This document shows positions 15,358 to 55,303 of a stretch of DNA of 64,000 nucleotides, piece by piece (positions within the stretch are counted from its first letter, which is position 1; each line of letters starts with the position of its first letter). Both the position numbers and the translations under genes were made by a program. Source of the stretch: Aquisalimonas lutea (GTDB lineage: Bacteria; Pseudomonadota; Gammaproteobacteria; Nitrococcales; Aquisalimonadaceae); NCBI RefSeq assembly GCF_030409225.1, contig NZ_JAUFPK010000001.1, positions 1,834,733-1,898,732 on the forward strand. Reading direction: 5' to 3'. Below the pieces are notes generated by a model. That model was given only the letters and a program-made list of their open reading frames with translations, was not told where the DNA came from and made no database searches.

Positions 15358-15375
15358 TTGTCATTGAACTGTCAT
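15358..15375 (+). promoter_or_regulatory. PHO box upstream of the porin
   Basis: TTGTCAT, 4 bases, CTGTCAT: two 7-bp half-sites in the 7-4-7 layout of the PhoB site, 13 of 14 positions matching CTGTCAT twice. It lies 126 bases before the porin ATG. A clear -10 is not seen at the expected distance; the best AT-rich spot is CGTAAT at 15392-15397. Confidence 0.8.
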
Positions 15376-15501
15376 TGCACGGACACGTGCGCGTAATCCC
15401 TTTTCCCCAATCTGTTCCCCGGTTCGGCCAGGGAGGTTCCGGCACGGTCGCCGGGCCCCGGGCCATGGCCAACACAAACGCAAGCCCAAGGGGAACAATC
15501 C

Positions 15502-16515
15502 ATGAAAAAGCTTTCCACGACGGCACTGGTGATCGCGGCAGGTATGGCGTCGTCGGCGCAGGCCGCGGACTTCGAGGTCAGTGACAATACCACCGTGGGT
15601 GTCTACGGGGAGTTCGCGCCCATGCTGGTGTCCGAGAAAGACGGCGCCGGCGAGTCGCGCAGTGAATTCACCGACAACGGCTCCATTATCGGTTTCAGCG
15701 TCGATCAGCGCCTCGACAACGGCGTGACCCTGTTCGGTGTGGCGGAGTTCGAGTTCCTCACCGACAACAGTGATAACGACTTCGTGTTCGACGCCGGCTA
15801 CATCGGTGCCCGGGGGAACTTCGGCCGCGTGCAGCTGGGCAACTTCGACAGCGTCTACGAGGACCTGATCATCGACGCCACGGAGGTCGCCGAGCTCGCG
15901 GAGATCACCGACGAGTCCGTCATGTCCGAGGACAACCAGGTCGCGTACTACAGCCCGAGCTTCAATGGCTTTTCCTTCCGCGCCCAGGCGCGCTACATGG
16001 GTGACGGCGACGACAATGCCATCGCGGGCCAGGACAGCGCCGAGGTCGGCTTCTCGCTGGCCGGCGGCTACTCCGCCGACAACTGGGGCGTGTACGCCGG
16101 CTATGACGACCGCGGCTCCGAGGTGGTGGACCAGTACGACGCCAACGGCAACGTCACCGGCCAGGACTATGCCGACAACGGCACCTACGGCGTCAGCGGC
16201 ATCTACGGCATCGGCCCCGTGGAGCTGGCGGCCAAATACGCCATCCAGGATCTCGAGGACAACGATCCGGCCGGCGACGACATTACCTATGCGGCCCTGC
16301 GCGGAACGGTCACCTACGGCCCGGGCGACGTCTATGCCGCGGTCCAGGAGGTCATGCACGACAACGACGACGTGGTCGCCGACCGCACCGAGTTCACCGT
16401 CGGTGTCTCTCACGGCGTCGCGGACAATCTCGACCTCTGGGCCGAGGCCGGCTACTTCGACCAGCAGAACGATGCCGGTGACGTGATGGGTGTCGGCGCC
16501 ATCTACGAATTCTGA
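15502..16515 (+). CDS. acidic Gram-negative outer-membrane porin
   Basis: 337 residues. Signal peptide MKKLSTTALVIAAGMASSAQA, then a beta-barrel of alternating strands, ending YEF with the C-terminal phenylalanine used for barrel assembly. It is very rich in D and E (for example residues 85-95 and 200-230), as expected in a halophile. Family features include GVYGEFAPML, NFGRVQLGNFDSVYEDL, QVAYYSPSFNGFSF and GVSGIYGIGPVELAAKYA. Substrate is unknown; an upstream PHO box and a downstream PhnD-type importer suggest entry of phosphate or organophosphorus compounds. The ATG has AAGGGG upstream. Confidence 0.88.
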   Translation: MKKLSTTALVIAAGMASSAQAADFEVSDNTTVGVYGEFAPMLVSEKDGAGESRSEFTDNGSIIGFSVDQRLDNGVTLFGVAEFEFLTDNSDNDFVFDAGYIGARGNFGRVQLGNFDSVYEDLIIDATEVAELAEITDESVMSEDNQVAYYSPSFNGFSFRAQARYMGDGDDNAIAGQDSAEVGFSLAGGYSADNWGVYAGYDDRGSEVVDQYDANGNVTGQDYADNGTYGVSGIYGIGPVELAAKYAIQDLEDNDPAGDDITYAALRGTVTYGPGDVYAAVQEVMHDNDDVVADRTEFTVGVSHGVADNLDLWAEAGYFDQQNDAGDVMGVGAIYEF

Positions 16516-16600
16516 TTCCTCCGGTATCAGCTTCAGGGACAACCGGGCCAGGGATGGCGCGTCCCGTTTCTCCATTTCATCCGACGAGGAGTCAATCAGT

Positions 16601-17497
16601 ATGTTGCGTCACGCTATTGCCACGACGGCACTGCTCACCGGGAGCGTTCTTCTGGGCGGCTCCGGGACGGTTGCCGCCAGCACCGACCTTGCGGAAGCCT
16701 GCCCCAACCCCATGCGCATGGCGGACACCGGCATCGAGGGCATGGGGCAGCTGGACGAGGCATTCGGCCCGTTCCAGGAAGCGTTCCAGGAGCATACGGG
16801 CCTGGAGCTGGAGCTCTACAGCCTGAGCAACCGCACGGCTGCCGGCAACGCGCTGCGCTACGACGAGGTCGAGCTGGTCTTCGCCGGGCCCTCGGAGTTC
16901 GTCCTGTTCCAGCAGGAAGTCGAGGAGGGTGTCGAGATCCTGTTCGACATCAAGCGCCCGTACTACGGCTCGACCTTCCTGGCCAAGGCCGACAGCGGTA
17001 TCGAGTCCCTCGAGGGCATCGATGAGGATACGAGCATCGCCATGAAGGATACCGGCTCGACCAGCGGCCACATTATCCCGAGCCAGATGCTTGTCGAGGC
17101 CGGGCACGACATCGACGAGCTCGACATCACCATGGCCGGCGACGCGTTCACGCACGCCCTGGCCAACGGCGACGTGGACGTCATGGCCGGCGGTAACGAC
17201 GATGCCGACTACGTTCGCGAGGAGCTCGACCCCGAGGGCGACTATCGCGTGCTCGCCGAGTCGGATCCGCTGCCGGGCGATCCCGTGATCATCCGGGCCA
17301 ACATCGCGAGCGAATGCAAGACCCGGCTTCGAGAGACCCTCAGGGAGAACAGGGATGACCTCTGGGAAGCCCTGATCAGCACCGAGCGCAATGAGGAGAA
17401 ATTCCTCAACCGCGGTGCCGAGCTCGGCTTCAGCCTGACCGCCGAGGACTACCAGGTGATCAAGGAGGCCTACGAGGCAGCCGGCATCGACCTGTAA
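16601..17497 (+). CDS. PhnD-type phosphate/phosphite/phosphonate ABC transporter binding protein, system 1
   Basis: 298 residues. Signal peptide ending near VAAS, then a type II periplasmic binding fold. The head-group motif of PhnD-like proteins is present as DTGSTSGHIIPSQML (residues about 147-161). Family landmarks include FGPFQEAFQEHTG, LVFAGPSEFVLF and AGGNDDADYVREELDPEGDYRVL. It is highly acidic. It captures phosphonate, phosphite or phosphate in the periplasm; the exact ligand cannot be read. ATG 16601 has GAGGAG upstream. It follows the porin by 85 bases and precedes its ATPase and permease. Confidence 0.85.
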   Translation: MLRHAIATTALLTGSVLLGGSGTVAASTDLAEACPNPMRMADTGIEGMGQLDEAFGPFQEAFQEHTGLELELYSLSNRTAAGNALRYDEVELVFAGPSEFVLFQQEVEEGVEILFDIKRPYYGSTFLAKADSGIESLEGIDEDTSIAMKDTGSTSGHIIPSQMLVEAGHDIDELDITMAGDAFTHALANGDVDVMAGGNDDADYVREELDPEGDYRVLAESDPLPGDPVIIRANIASECKTRLRETLRENRDDLWEALISTERNEEKFLNRGAELGFSLTAEDYQVIKEAYEAAGIDL

Positions 17498-22002: not shown

Positions 22003-22155
22003 ACAGAAACCGCTTGCCTTGCGTGCTCCGCCCAACAGGATGCTGGGCCCGCGATGGCCGGCATCGACATGGCCCTCAGCGTCGTCGCCGTTCTCTCGAC
22101 CACGGCCCTTGTTGTCATCGTTGCGGGCCCGCCCCGGGCCGGAATGCCGGCGGGT

Positions 22156-22195
22156 CTGTCATCGCGACGTCAAGACGCTGTCATCGTGAGTTCAT
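22156..22195 (+). promoter_or_regulatory. four-unit PHO-box array before phnD system 2
   Basis: CTGTCAT (22156), ACGTCAA (22167), CTGTCAT (22178) and AGTTCAT (22189), each separated by 4 bases: a strict 11-bp period over four half-sites, the repeat of tandem PhoB dimers. The two outer-type units match perfectly and the other two at 4 of 7. A CAGGAT sits 10 bases past the last unit (22206-22211) in the -10 place, about 60 bases before the ATG at 22273. Confidence 0.78.
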
Positions 22196-22272
22196 CCGTT
22201 GCGGCCAGGATGCGGGCAAGTCAACGGGCCGCGCCGGTTCTCCGGCGGGCCCATTTCAAGGAGAGGTCGAGT

Positions 22273-23295
22273 ATGTTGCATCAGAACACGACACGGCCCG
22301 CGCCCGCGGCAGGAATGTTCAAGGTCGTGGCGCTTGTCGCCGCGCTCGCTCTTGGTGGCGGAGCCACGGCGCAGGCGCAGATGACGGAGTGCTCCCACCG
22401 CGGCGACCTCGCCGAGCGCTACTGCGACGACGACCGCGACCTGGTCGCCGACCTGCCCCTGGACCAGGCGCAGTGGCAGAACCCGGATACCCTGTTCTTC
22501 TCCTATGTCCCCGTCGAGGATCCGGCGGTGTACGAGGATGTCTTCGCGCCGTTCATCGACCACCTGGAGGAGGTGACGGGCAAGAACGTGCGCTACTTCT
22601 CCGCGCAGTCCTACGCCGCCCAGATCGAGGCGCTGCGCAGCGGGCGGCTGCACGTCGCCGGCCTGTCCACCGGCTCGGTGCCCTTCGGCGTCAACATCGG
22701 CGGCTTCGTGCCCTTCACCATCATGGGTACCGATAGCGGTGAATACGGCTATCGCATGCAGGTTATCACCCACCGGGACAGCGACATCGAGAGCCTGGAT
22801 GACCTCGCCGGCGAGACCATCGCCCACACCGAGCAGGCATCCAACTCGGGCAACCAGGCGCCGCGAGCGCTGCTGGCCGAGCGCGGCATCGTTCCCGGCG
22901 AGGACTACGAGGTCACCTATTCCGGCGGCCACGACCGCAGCATCCTCGGGGTGGCCAACCGGGACTATGTCGCGGCGCCGGTGGCTTCCTCGGTGCTGGA
23001 CCGCATGGCGGACCGGGGCGTGGTCGATCGGGATGACCTGCGGGTGATCTTCGAGACGGAATCGTTCCCCACCACCGGCTTCGGTCACGCCCACAACCTG
23101 CACCCGCGGCTGGCGCTGCTGGTGCGCAAGGCGTTCTTCACCTTCGACTTCGACGGCACCAGCGTGGGCGAGGAGTTCAGCGACGCCGACCGGTTCATTC
23201 CCATCACCTACCGCCGGAACTGGTCGGACATCCGCACCATCCAGGATGCCAACGACGTCGAGTACACCCGCGACCAGCTGGAAGCGCAGGAGTAG
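22273..23295 (+). CDS. phnD: PhnD-type phosphate/phosphite/phosphonate ABC transporter binding protein, system 2
   Basis: 340 residues. Signal peptide ending GATAQAQ, then DTLFFSYVPVEDPAVYEDVFAPFIDHLEEVTGKNVRYFSAQSYAAQIEALRSGRLHVAGL, the canonical PhnD opening. The head-group loop reads TEQASNSGNQAPRALL. It binds phosphonate, phosphite or phosphate in the periplasm. ATG 22273 has GAGAGG upstream and a PHO-box array further up. It is followed by ATPase and two permeases, a complete D-C-E-E set. No C-P lyase or phosphite dehydrogenase gene is in the window. Confidence 0.88.
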   Translation: MLHQNTTRPAPAAGMFKVVALVAALALGGGATAQAQMTECSHRGDLAERYCDDDRDLVADLPLDQAQWQNPDTLFFSYVPVEDPAVYEDVFAPFIDHLEEVTGKNVRYFSAQSYAAQIEALRSGRLHVAGLSTGSVPFGVNIGGFVPFTIMGTDSGEYGYRMQVITHRDSDIESLDDLAGETIAHTEQASNSGNQAPRALLAERGIVPGEDYEVTYSGGHDRSILGVANRDYVAAPVASSVLDRMADRGVVDRDDLRVIFETESFPTTGFGHAHNLHPRLALLVRKAFFTFDFDGTSVGEEFSDADRFIPITYRRNWSDIRTIQDANDVEYTRDQLEAQE

Positions 23296-50733: not shown

Positions 50734-51885
50734 TCAGGCGGCCGGTGATGCCGGCACCGGGCCGGCGATGCCCGCATGACAGGCGAGAATGCCCTCGAAC
50801 CGGTCGGCCACCGTTGTCCAGTCCTGCCGGGTGACGCTGGCGCGGGCATGGATGCCGAGCCGCCGGCGCAGCCGCCCCTCCCTCGCCAGCAGCGTCGCCG
50901 CGGCCCGGAACCGGGCGGCGTCGCCGAAGGGCACCAGCAGGCCGTTGTCGAACGAGCGCATGTGCTCCGCCGCAGCGCCGCTGTCGAACGCCACCACCGG
51001 CAGGCCGCTGGCCATGGCCTCGAGGACCACGTTGCCGAACGTGTCGGTGAGGCTCGGGAACAGGAACAGATCCGCCGAGGCGTAGTGGGCGGCCAGGTCC
51101 GGGCCGGATAGCGAGCCGGTGAACACGATGTCCGGGTGCTCGGCGGCCAGGGACGCCCGCAGCGGGCCGTCGCCGACCATGATGCAACGCGCTTGGGGGA
51201 CGGCCTGCTCGATGGCGCGAAAGCTGCGGATGGCCAGCTCCACGTTCTTCTCCGCCGCCAGCCGGCCCACGTACAGGATCACCGGGCTGCCCGGGAACAC
51301 GCCCCATTGCTGCCGCAGCGACGGATTGCGCCGCTGCGGTCGGAACCGTCCGGTATCGACGCCCCGGGGCAGCACGGCGACATCGCCGAAGCCCCGCTCG
51401 CCCAGGGTCGCGGCGAGGCGGGCCGTGGGCGCCAGAGTGACCCGGGTTCGCTGATGGAAGCGCCGCAGGTACGCCTCGATCAGGGGTGCCGCCAGCCCCA
51501 TCCCGTAGTAGCGGCCGTAGGCGGAGAAGTGGGTGTGGTAACCGGACACCACGGCGATGCCCAGGCGCCGGGCGGCGCGCACGGCCGCCCATCCCAGCGG
51601 CCCCTGCGTGGCCACGTAGACGACGTCTGGGGTGCGCTCCCGCCAGTGCGCGACCAGGCGCCGGACCGTGGGCAGGCCGAACCGCACGCTCGGATAGCCG
51701 GGTACCGGCAGGCCCGGCAGCGCCAGCACGGAACTCGCGCCGGTGCCGGGCACATCCGGCCGCGCCGGGATCACCAGGTCGATGTCGTGCCCGCGGTGGC
51801 GCAAGTGGTCCACCAGCGTACCCAGCGTCATGGCGACGCCGTTGGGCTCGGGGCGGTAGGTCTCCGTTACCAGGCCGATGTGCAT
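50734..51885 (-). CDS. GT4 glycosyltransferase, Agt/MgtA/SQD2-like
   Basis: 383 residues, GT-B fold. HIGLVTETYRPEPNGVAMTLGTL at the N terminus and, in the acceptor half, PVILYVGRLAAEKNVELAIRSF, MVGDGPLRASL, and SLTDTFGNVVLEAMASGLPVVAF in the nucleotide-sugar site. Its relatives glycosylate diacylglycerol or other lipids. With PlcP encoded divergently, an Agt-type role (DAG to glycolipid during Pi starvation) is the best guess. ATG 51885 with AAGGT upstream; a TTG at 51903 is alternative. The small gene upstream ends 36 bases away. Confidence 0.82.
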   Translation of the reverse strand: MHIGLVTETYRPEPNGVAMTLGTLVDHLRHRGHDIDLVIPARPDVPGTGASSVLALPGLPVPGYPSVRFGLPTVRRLVAHWRERTPDVVYVATQGPLGWAAVRAARRLGIAVVSGYHTHFSAYGRYYGMGLAAPLIEAYLRRFHQRTRVTLAPTARLAATLGERGFGDVAVLPRGVDTGRFRPQRRNPSLRQQWGVFPGSPVILYVGRLAAEKNVELAIRSFRAIEQAVPQARCIMVGDGPLRASLAAEHPDIVFTGSLSGPDLAAHYASADLFLFPSLTDTFGNVVLEAMASGLPVVAFDSGAAAEHMRSFDNGLLVPFGDAARFRAAATLLAREGRLRRRLGIHARASVTRQDWTTVADRFEGILACHAGIAGPVPASPAA

Positions 51886-51921
51886 GAATGATACCTTGCG
51901 CAATCGAAAGTCGGGGCCGGA

Positions 51922-52218
51922 CTAGCGGAACGCCCCCCGGCCCGCGAGGCAGAGCAGCCCGGGGCGCGTTTCCACCACCACGAAGTCGCCGGAGCGGCCG
52001 TCCTCCAGGCGAACCGTCGCCGCGCTCCTGCGGCGGAGCCGCTCCGGGATGCGGACACAAGGGACGAATACCTGCAGGGCGCCCCGGGAACGGGCCGCCG
52101 TCCGGTGGATTACGATCTGGTCGCTGCGCAGCAGGACCCTGCCGGCCTGCACGATATTGCCTTCTCCGGTCTCCCACTCCGCCACGGTGCCACCTCCGTC
52201 ATTCGACCGTGTCCGCAT
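51922..52218 (-). CDS. small unknown protein, first gene of the glycosyltransferase operon
   Basis: 98 residues, no TM, basic. Sequence features are GTVAEWETGEGNIVQAGRVLL, RSDQIVIHRT and ATVRLEDGRSGDFVVVETRPG, suggesting a small beta-rich fold. No family was recognised. ATG 52218 with AGGGAG upstream; the frame is open to 52263, but the PHO box there makes the shorter start more likely. It lies between the PHO box and the glycosyltransferase. Confidence 0.6.
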   Translation of the reverse strand: MRTRSNDGGGTVAEWETGEGNIVQAGRVLLRSDQIVIHRTAARSRGALQVFVPCVRIPERLRRRSAATVRLEDGRSGDFVVVETRPGLLCLAGRGAFR

Positions 52219-52243
52219 GATCTCCCTTGCGTGTCTCACCGTG

Positions 52244-52272
52244 TTGACGTAGAGGTGACACATTCATGACAG
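52244..52272 (-). promoter_or_regulatory. PHO box for the glycosyltransferase operon
   Basis: On the minus strand CTGTCAT, GAAT, GTGTCAC (52255-52272; 12 of 14 positions matching), then CTCT and a third unit ACGTCAA (52244-52250) on the same 11-bp period. A matching -10 is not obvious. Confidence 0.75.
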
Positions 52273-52343: not shown

Positions 52344-52396
52344 GAGAGATGTTCACACTTCCGTCGAAACTGAGCCATGCAGGAGGCAAAGCCGAT

Positions 52397-53200
52397 ATGG
52401 CCGTCGTAGAGAACATGCGCCCGCTGCGCTACCGGAGCATCTTCATTTCCGACGCACATCTCGGGTTCCGCGGCGCCCGAGCCGACTACCTGCTGGAGTT
52501 TCTCGAGGCGACCGAATCCGAGTACCTCTATCTTGTCGGCGACATGCTCGACATCTGGGAGATGCAGAAGCGCGTCTACTGGCCCCGGGAGCATGCGCTG
52601 GTGGTGCGCAGGATCATGGAGAAGGCGTGGAACGGTACCAAGGTCGTGTACCTGCCGGGCAACCACGACGAGGCCATGCGGGCCTACAACGGCAGCGTCC
52701 TCGACCAGTTCTCCATGACGGATCAGGCCATCCATACGACGGCGGACGGCCGGCGGTTTTTGGTTCTGCACGGGGATCAGTTCGATACCGTCGTCAAGTG
52801 CTCGCGGCTCCTGTCCATGCTGGGAAGCCGCTCGTACGGCCTGCTGCTGCGCGCCAACCACTGGGTGCACCTGGTACGGCGCGTATTCGGCTTCCCTTAC
52901 TGGTCCCTGGCCGCGCACGTGAAGTACCGGGTCAAGAACGCCATGGCCTACATCTCGAACTTCGAGGAGATGGTGGCCTGGGAGGCGACCCGGCAGCACG
53001 TCGACGGCGTGGTCTGCGGTCACATCCACTATGCCGAAATGCGCAGCGTCGGTGACGTGCTGTACTGCAACGACGGCGACTGGGTCGAGAGCTGCACCTC
53101 GCTGGCGGAGAACCACGACGGCTCGCTGGAACTGCTGCGATGGGCCGAGCTGCGCGAGCAAGCGCGCCCGGACGAGCAGGTGTCCGCCCGGATCGCCTAG
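52397..53200 (+). CDS. PlcP-like calcineurin-type phospholipase C (usually annotated LpxH-like)
   Basis: 267 residues. Metallophosphoesterase motifs DAHLGFRG, GDMLDIWEM, LPGNHDEAMR, LHGDQFD, and GHIHYAEM. The segments MQKRVYWPREH, VFGFPYWSLAAHVKYRVKNAMAYISNFEE and CNDGDWVESCTSL resemble PlcP, which under Pi starvation splits PE or PG to DAG and a phospho-alcohol. True LpxH is shorter. Divergent glycosyltransferase and a PHO box support PlcP. ATG 52397 has AGGAGG 10 bases upstream. The next gene starts 11 bases downstream. Confidence 0.85.
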   Translation: MAVVENMRPLRYRSIFISDAHLGFRGARADYLLEFLEATESEYLYLVGDMLDIWEMQKRVYWPREHALVVRRIMEKAWNGTKVVYLPGNHDEAMRAYNGSVLDQFSMTDQAIHTTADGRRFLVLHGDQFDTVVKCSRLLSMLGSRSYGLLLRANHWVHLVRRVFGFPYWSLAAHVKYRVKNAMAYISNFEEMVAWEATRQHVDGVVCGHIHYAEMRSVGDVLYCNDGDWVESCTSLAENHDGSLELLRWAELREQARPDEQVSARIA

Positions 53201-53211
53201 GAGAGCCCGTC

Positions 53212-54258
53212 ATGCGAGCACCCGATACGCTGCTGAAGCATTACTGGTCGTCGCCGGCCCGGGCCATGGTGGCTCACGGTCCCCTGCGGCCCGGCGCACT
53301 GGGGCGCAACCGCGGGGGTACGACGGCGGTGGCGGTGGACGCGCCGGCACCGGCAACCGTCATGCGGGACGAGCTCGGGGCGTTGCCCGAATCGGCCCGG
53401 CTGGCCGGCAGCGGCCAGCTGAGCGTGTATGCGCTGCATGCCGCCCAGGCACCGGCGGTCGTCCAGGAGGTGGGCCGTCTGCGGGAGCTTACCTTCCGGG
53501 ACGTGGGGGAGGGCAGCGGCGGCCAGCGCGATCTGGACTGGTTCGACAGCTACTACACCCACCTGGTGGTCTGGGATGGCCATGCCGGGTGCGTGGTGGG
53601 GGCCTATCGGCTGGGTTTCACCGATCGCCTTCCGGGCTGGGATCGCGCGTCGGCGCTGTACAGCAATACCCTGTTCCGGCTCTCGGAGAGCTTTCTCGCC
53701 GAGGTGGAGCCGGCCATCGAGCTGGGGCGCTCCTTCGTGCGCCGGGAGTACCAGCGTAGCTACGCGCCGCTTGCGCTGCTGTGGAAGGCCATCGGCGCCA
53801 TCATCGGCGACGCGCCGCAGTATCGGTACCTGTTCGGCCCGGTCACTATCTCCGGGCGGTACGATGCCGCCTCCCGCGCCATGATGGTGCGCTTCCTGGC
53901 CAAGCCCGGGCGGGCGTCGTCGCTGATGCCGCTGGTTCAGCCGCGGCACCCGTTCCGGCCCGGCGCCAGTGCCCGGGCGCTGGCTCGCCTCGCCGACCGG
54001 GCGGATTCCGTGGAAGCCCTGAGCCGACTGATCGCCGCGGGCGAGAAGGACGGCGCCGGCGTGCCCATCCTGTTGCGCCAGTACCTGAAACTGGGGGCAC
54101 GGTCGGTGGCGTTCAGCGTCGATGCCTCCTTCGGCCGGTGCCTGGATGCCCTCTGCCTGGTCGATCTGCTGGCCACCGATCCGCGCACGCTGCGCCGGTA
54201 CATGGGCGCGGATGCCGCATCGTCCTATCTTGCCGCCCATCATCGCCGAAGCGCCTGA
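53212..54258 (+). CDS. OlsB/OlsF-like GNAT N-acyltransferase
   Basis: 348 residues. After a non-conserved N-terminal segment of about 90 residues, it matches the Acetyltransf_5/OlsB-like domain: GRLRELTFRDVGEGSGGQRDLDWFDSYYTHLVVWD, GAYRLGFTDRLPGWD, AIELGRSFVRREYQRSYAPLALLWKAIGAII, GPVTISGRYDAASRAMM. In OlsB and in the N-terminal half of OlsF this domain N-acylates ornithine (or glutamine) to the lyso-lipid. No O-acyltransferase domain is present. It is second in the plcP operon (AGGAGAG before ATG 53212). Confidence 0.78.
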   Translation: MRAPDTLLKHYWSSPARAMVAHGPLRPGALGRNRGGTTAVAVDAPAPATVMRDELGALPESARLAGSGQLSVYALHAAQAPAVVQEVGRLRELTFRDVGEGSGGQRDLDWFDSYYTHLVVWDGHAGCVVGAYRLGFTDRLPGWDRASALYSNTLFRLSESFLAEVEPAIELGRSFVRREYQRSYAPLALLWKAIGAIIGDAPQYRYLFGPVTISGRYDAASRAMMVRFLAKPGRASSLMPLVQPRHPFRPGASARALARLADRADSVEALSRLIAAGEKDGAGVPILLRQYLKLGARSVAFSVDASFGRCLDALCLVDLLATDPRTLRRYMGADAASSYLAAHHRRSA

Positions 54259-54261
54259 GCC

Positions 54262-54861
54262 ATGAGCGCGCTACCGGCGTCCGATCGCTGGCTGTTCCTG
54301 CGCCGGTTCCTCGCCCGGGGGCGCCGTATCGCCAGTGTCACGCCCTCGAGCCGTTCCATGGCCCGGGCCCTGGCCGCGGGGGTGGATCCGCTGCGGCCTC
54401 AGACCATCGTCGAGCTCGGCGCCGGGACCGGGGCGGTCTCCGGTGTCGTCGTCGAGCGGATGCATCCGCGCAGCCGGCTGCTGGCGGTGGAGGCGGACCC
54501 GGAGCTCTGGGGCGTTCTCCGGCACCGGGTACCGGAGGCCGTCCAGGGCGATGTCGCGGACCTGCCGGCCCTGCTGGACGCGCACGGCGTCGGTGACGTG
54601 GACCTGGTTGTCAGCGGTCTGCCCGTGCCCAGCCTGCCGTACGCGATCAACGTGCGCATGTTCGAGTGGCTGGCCCGGCTGCCGGGAGACGTCGGCTTCA
54701 GCCAGCTCACCGTCATGCCCTGGGTGTACGCGCGTCTCTATCGCCGGCTGTTCCGGAACGTGGACTTCCGGCCGGTGCCTTGCAATCTCCCGCCCGGGGG
54801 CGTGTATCACTGTCGCGGGGTGCGAGAGGACTTCCGGGCCGCACTGCCGGGACCGCGGTGA
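54262..54861 (+). CDS. PmtA/OlsG-like SAM-dependent lipid N-methyltransferase
   Basis: 199 residues. N-terminal FLRRFLARGRRIASVTPSSRSMARAL and motif I VELGAGTGAVSGVVVERM, then DLVVSGLPVPSLPYAINVRM, the pattern of rhizobial PmtA. PmtA methylates PE to PC; the PmtA-like OlsG methylates ornithine lipids. The gene starts 3 bases after the acyltransferase stop, so its substrate is likely that enzyme's product or a phospholipid. Third and last gene of the plcP operon. Confidence 0.8.
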   Translation: MSALPASDRWLFLRRFLARGRRIASVTPSSRSMARALAAGVDPLRPQTIVELGAGTGAVSGVVVERMHPRSRLLAVEADPELWGVLRHRVPEAVQGDVADLPALLDAHGVGDVDLVVSGLPVPSLPYAINVRMFEWLARLPGDVGFSQLTVMPWVYARLYRRLFRNVDFRPVPCNLPPGGVYHCRGVREDFRAALPGPR

Positions 54862-54870
54862 CTGCCACAC

Positions 54871-54896
54871 AAAAAAAACGCCCCGTTGCCGGGGCG
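54871..54896 (-). terminator. minus-strand terminator-like hairpin
   Basis: Stem CGCCCCG (54879-54885) with CGGGGCG (54890-54896), loop TTGC, next to eight A (54871-54878), so it reads as a rho-independent terminator on the minus strand. No minus-strand gene with coding character lies upstream, which hints at a short RNA. For the plus operon it is only a hairpin without a T tract. Confidence 0.6.
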
Positions 54897-55303
54897 CAAG
54901 GAATCCTTTCATTGAGGAGGAGAAGCATTGCTGTGCGGCCTCCTGCCGCTCAAGAATCTAAGCAATAACCGGGCCATGTGGGCTCGTACCCGGAAAGGCG
55001 GATGACACGGGCGGGTCAATGTGCTGGACCGCGGCGGGGTGTCGCCGCCGTGCGTCATGAGCGGGCATGTCGCAGTACGGTGCACAACTGCGGGGCGGTG
55101 CGCGGCCCGACCCGGAGCGATGCTCCGTCATCGTTCCCGGGGTGGCCCCGGGCGGTGACACCGGGCCGACGGGGCGCGCAACAATGCCCGCTGTGATCCG
55201 GGCTCGGGACGCGCGTGTGCGAACTGTGAACGGGTTCACTGCGCACGGAGCCGGACTGGTGTTTCCTCGGCCATACCAGCCCATTACGGAGTGACTGCGT
55301 ATC
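54897..55303. other. non-coding stretch before the YjfB-like gene
   Basis: About 410 bases with no convincing gene. A weak minus-strand PHO-like pair (GTGTCAT, 4 bases, CTTTCCG; 54991-55008) lies about 95 bases before the minus-strand terminator. The small frames here lack a ribosome-binding site. No plus-strand promoter could be defined. Confidence 0.35.

Follow-up and report, generated by a model that had tools for sequence, protein, structure and literature searches.

Different enzyme sets for the synthesis of ornithine lipids have been described. In OlsF, a bifunctional ornithine lipid synthase known from Serratia proteamaculans, Vibrio, and Flavobacterium, the C-terminus is the OlsB-like part, the N-terminus belonging to a different family, PF19576 (2024 review, PMC11631085); OlsB, of the OlsBA pathway, and the C-terminal half of OlsF are members of one GNAT family. 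In the planctomycete Singulisphaera acidiphila, the gene of the methyltransferase OlsG (Sinac_1600) shares an operon with genes for the synthesis of ornithine lipids, the partners of OlsG being OlsH, a GH3 protein, and the O-acyltransferase OlsI, an alpha/beta hydrolase (PMC12493201). A free-standing N-acyltransferase of the OlsF C-terminal type is also employed in the glycine lipid synthesis of Bacteroides (GlsB/GlsA), and PmtA of Agrobacterium has its fold and SAM site in common with the methyltransferase considered below. In the remodelling that follows phosphate starvation, finally, the published contexts of plcP are glycosyltransferase (glycolipid) genes, such as agt, and betaine-lipid genes (Sebastian et al., PMC4796936).

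The locus described here lies in a window (the whole stretch of DNA analysed, 64,000 nucleotides long) of the 4.2-Mb, high-GC genome of the gammaproteobacterium Aquisalimonas lutea, where a protein corresponding to the C-terminal half of OlsF and a methyltransferase matching OlsG over its full length are encoded side by side, behind a plcP-like gene. Each of the described systems is resembled in part only: the N-terminal PF19576 half of OlsF is missing from both the protein and the host genome; unlike S. acidiphila, the host is a gammaproteobacterium devoid of GH3, its operon is phosphate-linked, and its methyltransferase scores under the OlsG cut-off; an OlsA-like protein is present, but an olsBA operon is not; a GlsA-type PF19576 protein is absent, and N-acyl glycine would have no amine to methylate; the methyltransferase, despite its PmtA fold, belongs to a different clade, lacks the catalytic tyrosine and carries another C-terminal motif; and the plcP-like gene and the glycosyltransferase gene are accompanied by a PHO box as in PlcP/Agt remodelling, whereas the genes that follow plcP in its operon form an aminolipid pair. 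The interpretation favoured here, to which we assign somewhat better than an even chance, is that the pair would form a methylated ornithine-lipid cassette, with N-acylation, a separate O-acylation, and N-methylation, in a phosphate-starvation setting. The family-level identity of the proteins, the intactness of their genes, the layout of the operon, the PHO box and the recurrence of the pair elsewhere can be read directly from the DNA. No report of an olsF-olsG pair was found in the literature searched. The component families are known; new with respect to that literature are the combination of OlsF-type and OlsG-like enzymes, the Pho/plcP context in which it stands and its occurrence beyond planctomycetes.

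Organization of the Operon and Its Phosphate Setting

The relevant features, in window coordinates, are the following.

50734..51903, minus strand: GT4 glycosyltransferase (PF13692/PF00534), Agt-like by context (glycolipid branch)
51922..52263, minus strand: 113-aa ORF between the PHO box and the glycosyltransferase gene, with no match in Pfam or NCBIfam
52255..52272, minus strand: PHO box CTGTCATGAATGTGTCAC, predicted PhoB site in the divergent promoter region, 12/14 consensus bases
52349..53200, plus strand: PlcP-like metallophosphoesterase, first gene of the operon, 283 aa (PF00149, E 7e-11)
53212..54258, plus strand: free-standing N-acyltransferase ACYLTRANSFERASE, 348 aa, intact ORF
54262..54861, plus strand: predicted OlsG-like SAM-dependent lipid N-methyltransferase METHYLTRANSFERASE, 199 aa, intact ORF
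54878..54897, minus strand: hairpin with a T tract past the methyltransferase gene, not above shuffle expectation

The acyltransferase and methyltransferase genes are on the plus strand and separated by 3 bases, as an earlier reading made from the sequence alone (hereafter, the sequence-only reading) had stated, and the pair begins 11 bases after the end of the plcP-like gene. Homologues of the PlcP-like protein, 45–58% identical, adjoin OlsF in other gammaproteobacteria, and it is on this context that we infer the gene to encode PlcP rather than another LpxH-like enzyme. The PHO box, whose chance of occurring in the 103-base intergenic stretch is about 2e-4, lies 76 bases before the plcP-like gene; the operon had been described as a PHO-box operon, and the box is indeed there, but it is oriented toward the glycosyltransferase side; it probably serves the plcP-like gene too. 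As for the glycosyltransferase, its nearest curated model is N-acetylglucosaminyl phosphatidylglycerol synthase (162 bits, under cut-off), and its homologues elsewhere adjoin OlsF and plcP. Since the annotated start of the intervening 113-aa ORF falls within the PHO box, its true start is probably internal.

Neighbouring genes read by sequence as phoB, phoR, phoU, and pstB. The window as a whole is a large phosphate-acquisition region, with binding-protein genes in addition to the pst/pho genes at 44–50 kb; tandem PHO-box-like repeats occur at 15358–15386 and 22156–22195, in the vicinity of two genes (16490–17497 and 22054–23295) whose products are periplasmic binding proteins of the phosphonate type.

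A similar setting is found for OlsF in other gammaproteobacteria, at least five of which (L073–L077) have plcP nearby, two of them (L075, L077) together with Agt-like glycosyltransferases; within the same order, OlsF adjoins an Agt-like gene in one member (L281) and genes reading as pstS, pstC, and pstA in another (L282). At L281 (6407–8238, genome G001), OlsF is carried in two overlapping frames, corresponding to its O-acyltransferase and N-acyltransferase halves, as the result of a frameshift or as a variant with two genes. At the four loci of other genomes where the pair recurs (L084, L085, L087, and L093; see below), no PHO box of at least 11/14 was detected; the phosphate link is therefore seen in the window alone among the paired loci and, as judged by gene neighbours, for gammaproteobacterial OlsF as well. 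In the part covered of the literature mentioning both olsF and plcP, no report of a linkage of OlsF to plcP, Agt, or pst was found.

The N-Acyltransferase and the Choice of Head Group

The product of 53212–54258 matches Acetyltransf_5 (PF13444, E 6e-21) and, among curated NCBIfam models, OlsF, with 227 bits over profile positions 305–569 of 570, that is, the C-terminal half, below the OlsF equivalog cut-off. GlsB follows with 138 bits, while the two curated OlsB models give 39 and 35 bits, far from their cut-offs of 350 and 320. The PF19576 O-acyltransferase domain is not contained in the 348 residues. Given the stretch of the OlsF profile that is matched and the published assignment of the two halves (PMC11631085), the protein is to be read as the C-terminal half of OlsF standing alone, i.e., an N-acyltransferase; its earlier designation as OlsB/OlsF-like is thus borne out, but the ornithine acylation attributed at that time to the N-terminal half of OlsF belongs to the C-terminal, OlsB-like one. 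All columns invariant across 13 OlsF-type proteins are kept. The AlphaFold2 model has a mean pLDDT of 88.6, residues 1–36 being disordered, and by fold comparison resembles acyl-homoserine-lactone synthases and other GNAT enzymes; a sequence search of the PDB returned only noise. The remaining two PF13444 proteins encoded by the host (L002 and L003, at C1:1303319–1303621 and C1:1293983–1294273, about 9 kb apart) were considered as OlsB and rejected, one being a PEP-CTERM/exosortase-associated acyltransferase and the other a FeeM-like GNAT.

The presence of a methyltransferase next to this enzyme restricts the head group. Ornithine or lysine fits as the substrate of methylation; glutamine and glycine, from which no free amine remains after N-acylation, do not and were rejected on chemical grounds, so that the methylated glutamine lipid envisaged by the sequence-only reading is unlikely. 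That the methylated lipid made by the pair is instead based on lysine, or is some other aminolipid with a free side-chain amine, deserves consideration, since OlsF homologues have been suspected of lysine-lipid synthesis (PMC11631085), lysine keeps a free amine just as ornithine does, and the choice of head group is unreadable from sequence; we nevertheless hold it unlikely, the best curated matches of the two proteins being an ornithine lipid synthase, OlsF, and an ornithine lipid methyltransferase. Ornithine is accordingly retained below as the presumed head group.

The Methyltransferase

Against the OlsG model NF041658, the product of 54262–54861 scores 182 bits over its full length, under the cut-off of 350 bits, as do all other members of the OlsG-like clade that were tested; against the Agrobacterium PmtA model NF045881, it scores 54 bits. 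The OlsG score alone was rejected as a proof of substrate, because PmtA-like proteins encoded in other genomes, too, obtain more bits from the OlsG model than from that of Agrobacterium PmtA, albeit by smaller margins. In a maximum-likelihood tree (whose rows do not include OlsG of S. acidiphila, sought in 294 sampled genomes of its phylum with nothing over the cut-off), the protein is placed among 33 OlsG-like rows, split from 20 PmtA-like rows at 100/96. It had been described as PmtA/OlsG-like; by scores and tree it is OlsG-like rather than merely PmtA-like, and it belongs to a clade clearly apart from its PmtA-like relatives.

The two groups differ also at positions of known function. In A. 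tumefaciens PmtA, Tyr161 activates the amine of PE and is important for its methylation (PMC12139422); the corresponding position is Tyr or Phe in 56/56 PmtA-like sequences and in none of 47 members of the OlsG-like clade, the window protein having Val at its residue 151. The neighbouring position of Ile159, in turn, affects the number of methyl groups added by the Agrobacterium enzyme, which is a three-step one; as in the latter, Ile or Leu is found in 47/47 OlsG-like clade members, while Phe or Tyr occupies the position in 54 of the 56 PmtA-like sequences, and this makes trimethylation by the OlsG-like enzyme plausible. Most members of the clade, including that of the window, have the C-terminal motif PPGGVYHC (6/7 among members found without the motif as a search pattern, one-residue variants allowed), PmtA-like proteins mostly ending in PPA.

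The SAM-binding E/DxGxGxG motif and the S-type PmtA fold are both present, and the nearest structure to the predicted fold is A. tumefaciens PmtA (9ko3). The common superfamily and fold, the failure to find a second close PmtA-like protein in the host genome, and the weakness of scores from an OlsG model that outscores the Agrobacterium one even for PmtA-like proteins could all suggest that the enzyme is a PmtA making methylated PE or PC, a mere neighbour of the acyltransferase. Its placement in a separate clade, the replacement of Tyr161 by Val and the pairing with OlsF-type enzymes in three labelled phyla besides that of the window all speak for a substrate other than PE, and the methylation of phospholipids would suit a phosphate-starvation operon poorly; the PmtA assignment is thus quite improbable, and the methylation of an ornithine lipid is preferred.

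Recurrence of the Pair in Other Genomes

A scan of GTDB species genomes with the methyltransferase as query gave 45 OlsG-like loci, in 4 of which an acyltransferase of the window type is encoded directly upstream on the same strand, a pairing that exceeds chance. These four loci, labelled as three phyla, are those of an Armatimonadota MAG (L084), of the Phycisphaerae KatS3mg104 (L085) and of two Myxococcota MAGs (L087 and L093); each is a contig of a MAG, and its taxonomic label could be erroneous. L084 and L085 encode a complete OlsF fusion (PF19576 and PF13444), and in L087 and L093 only the C-terminal half is present, as is the case in the window. In the acyltransferase tree, the window protein, the four paired acyltransferases and a gammaproteobacterial OlsF (L054) group together at 80/94, a moderate support accompanied by several long branches, the end branch of the window protein measuring 1.09. 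From this grouping, the pair looks like a travelling cassette, which on the natural reading of these arrangements would once have been olsF-olsG, the O-acyltransferase half having been lost at least once. Only 1/14 sampled genomes of the window's family has the cassette, which was thus probably acquired; a search of viral contigs and plasmids for the methyltransferase returned nothing.

OlsG-like genes are infrequent in gammaproteobacteria, 4 of the 369 genomes sampled having one at no less than 179 bits and the rest giving at most 128 bits. In every gammaproteobacterial genome found to carry such a gene, an enzyme of OlsB or OlsF type is encoded as well, and those genomes in which the gene is unlinked all have an OlsB-type match. 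Among 24 genomes of the same order, the 4 with OlsG are all comprised in the 10 with an ornithine-lipid N-acyltransferase (hypergeometric probability about 0.02, calculated by hand and ignoring kinship). Outside this class, full-length OlsF occurs in 11 planctomycete or armatimonad genomes carrying the methyltransferase, whereas in some twenty planctomycete genomes that encode a member of the clade no GH3 match and no strong OlsF match was obtained; not every member of the clade is therefore explained by an OlsF or GH3 partner. In some marine Phycisphaerae (L089, L090, L092, and L095–L097), OlsF and the OlsG-like gene are found at separate places of the genome, and these organisms are candidate producers of methylated ornithine lipid. 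The OlsG-like gene of a contig titled Singulisphaera sp. GP187 (L115) clusters with Phycisphaerales-type sequences rather than with GH3 neighbours, and the label may be wrong.

The O-Acylation Step

The conversion of N-acyl ornithine into an ornithine lipid requires an O-acyltransferase, which the sequence-only reading had supposed to lie elsewhere in the genome, suggesting a search for OlsA/PlsC-like partners. A whole-genome search shows that PF19576 is absent, so that an enzyme of this family is ruled out, as is, in the absence of GH3, the OlsH route. Four PF01553 proteins are present (PlsC-like, PlsB-like, DUF374, and OlsA-like), among which the search yielded one candidate.

Genome position C1:1964352–1965200, about 66 kb past the end of the window: OlsA-like protein, 283 aa, with 155 bits for OlsA against 100 for PlsC

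Its score is under the 300-bit cut-off of the OlsA model, and no PHO box was found near its gene; homologues adjoin OlsB in two other genomes (G190 and G302). No better candidate for the O-acylation step was found, and to this extent the earlier expectation is supported. Orthologues with 53–71% identity are present, however, in members of the family without OlsB or OlsF, and since these relatives have no ornithine-lipid N-acyltransferase, the protein is possibly a housekeeping enzyme with a second use.

A different solution may exist in Myxococcota, where genes of alpha/beta hydrolase type lie directly upstream of the free-standing C-terminal half of OlsF (L087:5930–6952 and L093:5821–6885); the two proteins share 29% identity (E 3e-21), only that of L087 giving a clear Pfam match. 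By analogy with OlsI of S. acidiphila, they may replace the lost O-acyltransferase half. No homologue of them was found in the window or in selected stretches of the host genome.

PlsC-family enzymes serving more than one lipid exist, an example being OlsA of R. capsulatus. This, together with the apparent exchange of the lost half for a hydrolase in Myxococcota, which suggests that O-acylation is kept, makes it very unlikely that the product of the pair stays mono-acylated, as a methylated N-acyl ornithine acting as lyso-lipid, detergent, or signal and not as a membrane lipid, even if PF19576 is absent and the sole OlsA-like gene is unlinked, lacks a nearby PHO box and is conserved where the pathway is not.

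Proposed Pathway and Its Occurrence

In the pathway proposed, the GNAT enzyme would N-acylate ornithine with a 3-hydroxy fatty acid, an OlsA/PlsC-type enzyme encoded elsewhere in the genome would O-acylate the resulting N-acyl ornithine to ornithine lipid, and the OlsG-like enzyme would add one to three methyl groups to the free amine of the side chain, giving mono- to trimethyl ornithine lipid. The position of the cassette, behind the plcP-like gene and near a PHO box, leads one to expect the lipid when phosphate is scarce; under PhoB control, methylated ornithine lipid would appear at low phosphate along with glycolipid, replacing phospholipids, its synthesis running beside PlcP-driven phospholipid turnover and glycolipid synthesis. 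In this scheme we infer the ornithine head group, the O-acylating enzyme, the number of methyl groups, and the induction. That the cassette, rare in its family and with an acyltransferase on a long end branch deprived of its partner domain, has been acquired but no longer works in the host is most improbable, given the intact ORFs, the conservation of all invariant residues, the confident folds, a third-position GC like that of neighbouring genes, and the operon with its PHO box.

A broader proposal is advanced tentatively, its chances being in our judgement slightly below even: N-methylated ornithine lipids would not be confined to planctomycetes, a mobile OlsF-OlsG-type cassette being spread across Gammaproteobacteria, Myxococcota, Phycisphaerae, and Armatimonadota; in the present host it would be wired to the PlcP phosphate-starvation response, and its O-acylation would be interchangeable, provided by a fused PF19576 domain, by an OlsA/PlsC-type enzyme or, in Myxococcota, by an alpha/beta hydrolase. 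Trimethylornithine lipids of peat have been credited to planctomycetes (PMC7828035); in a 2025 study, olsG was stated to be present in certain planctomycete genomes only, and a head group of m/z 145 was called lysine over methylornithine partly on account of this restriction (PMC11828411). Both the attribution and the inference lose force if methylated ornithine lipids are produced by gammaproteobacteria and myxobacteria as well. Under phosphate control, a trimethyl ornithine lipid would represent a phosphorus-free counterpart of phosphatidylcholine. Arhodomonas aquaeolei, a cultured relative with OlsB, has an unlinked OlsG-like gene, which renders part of the idea directly testable.
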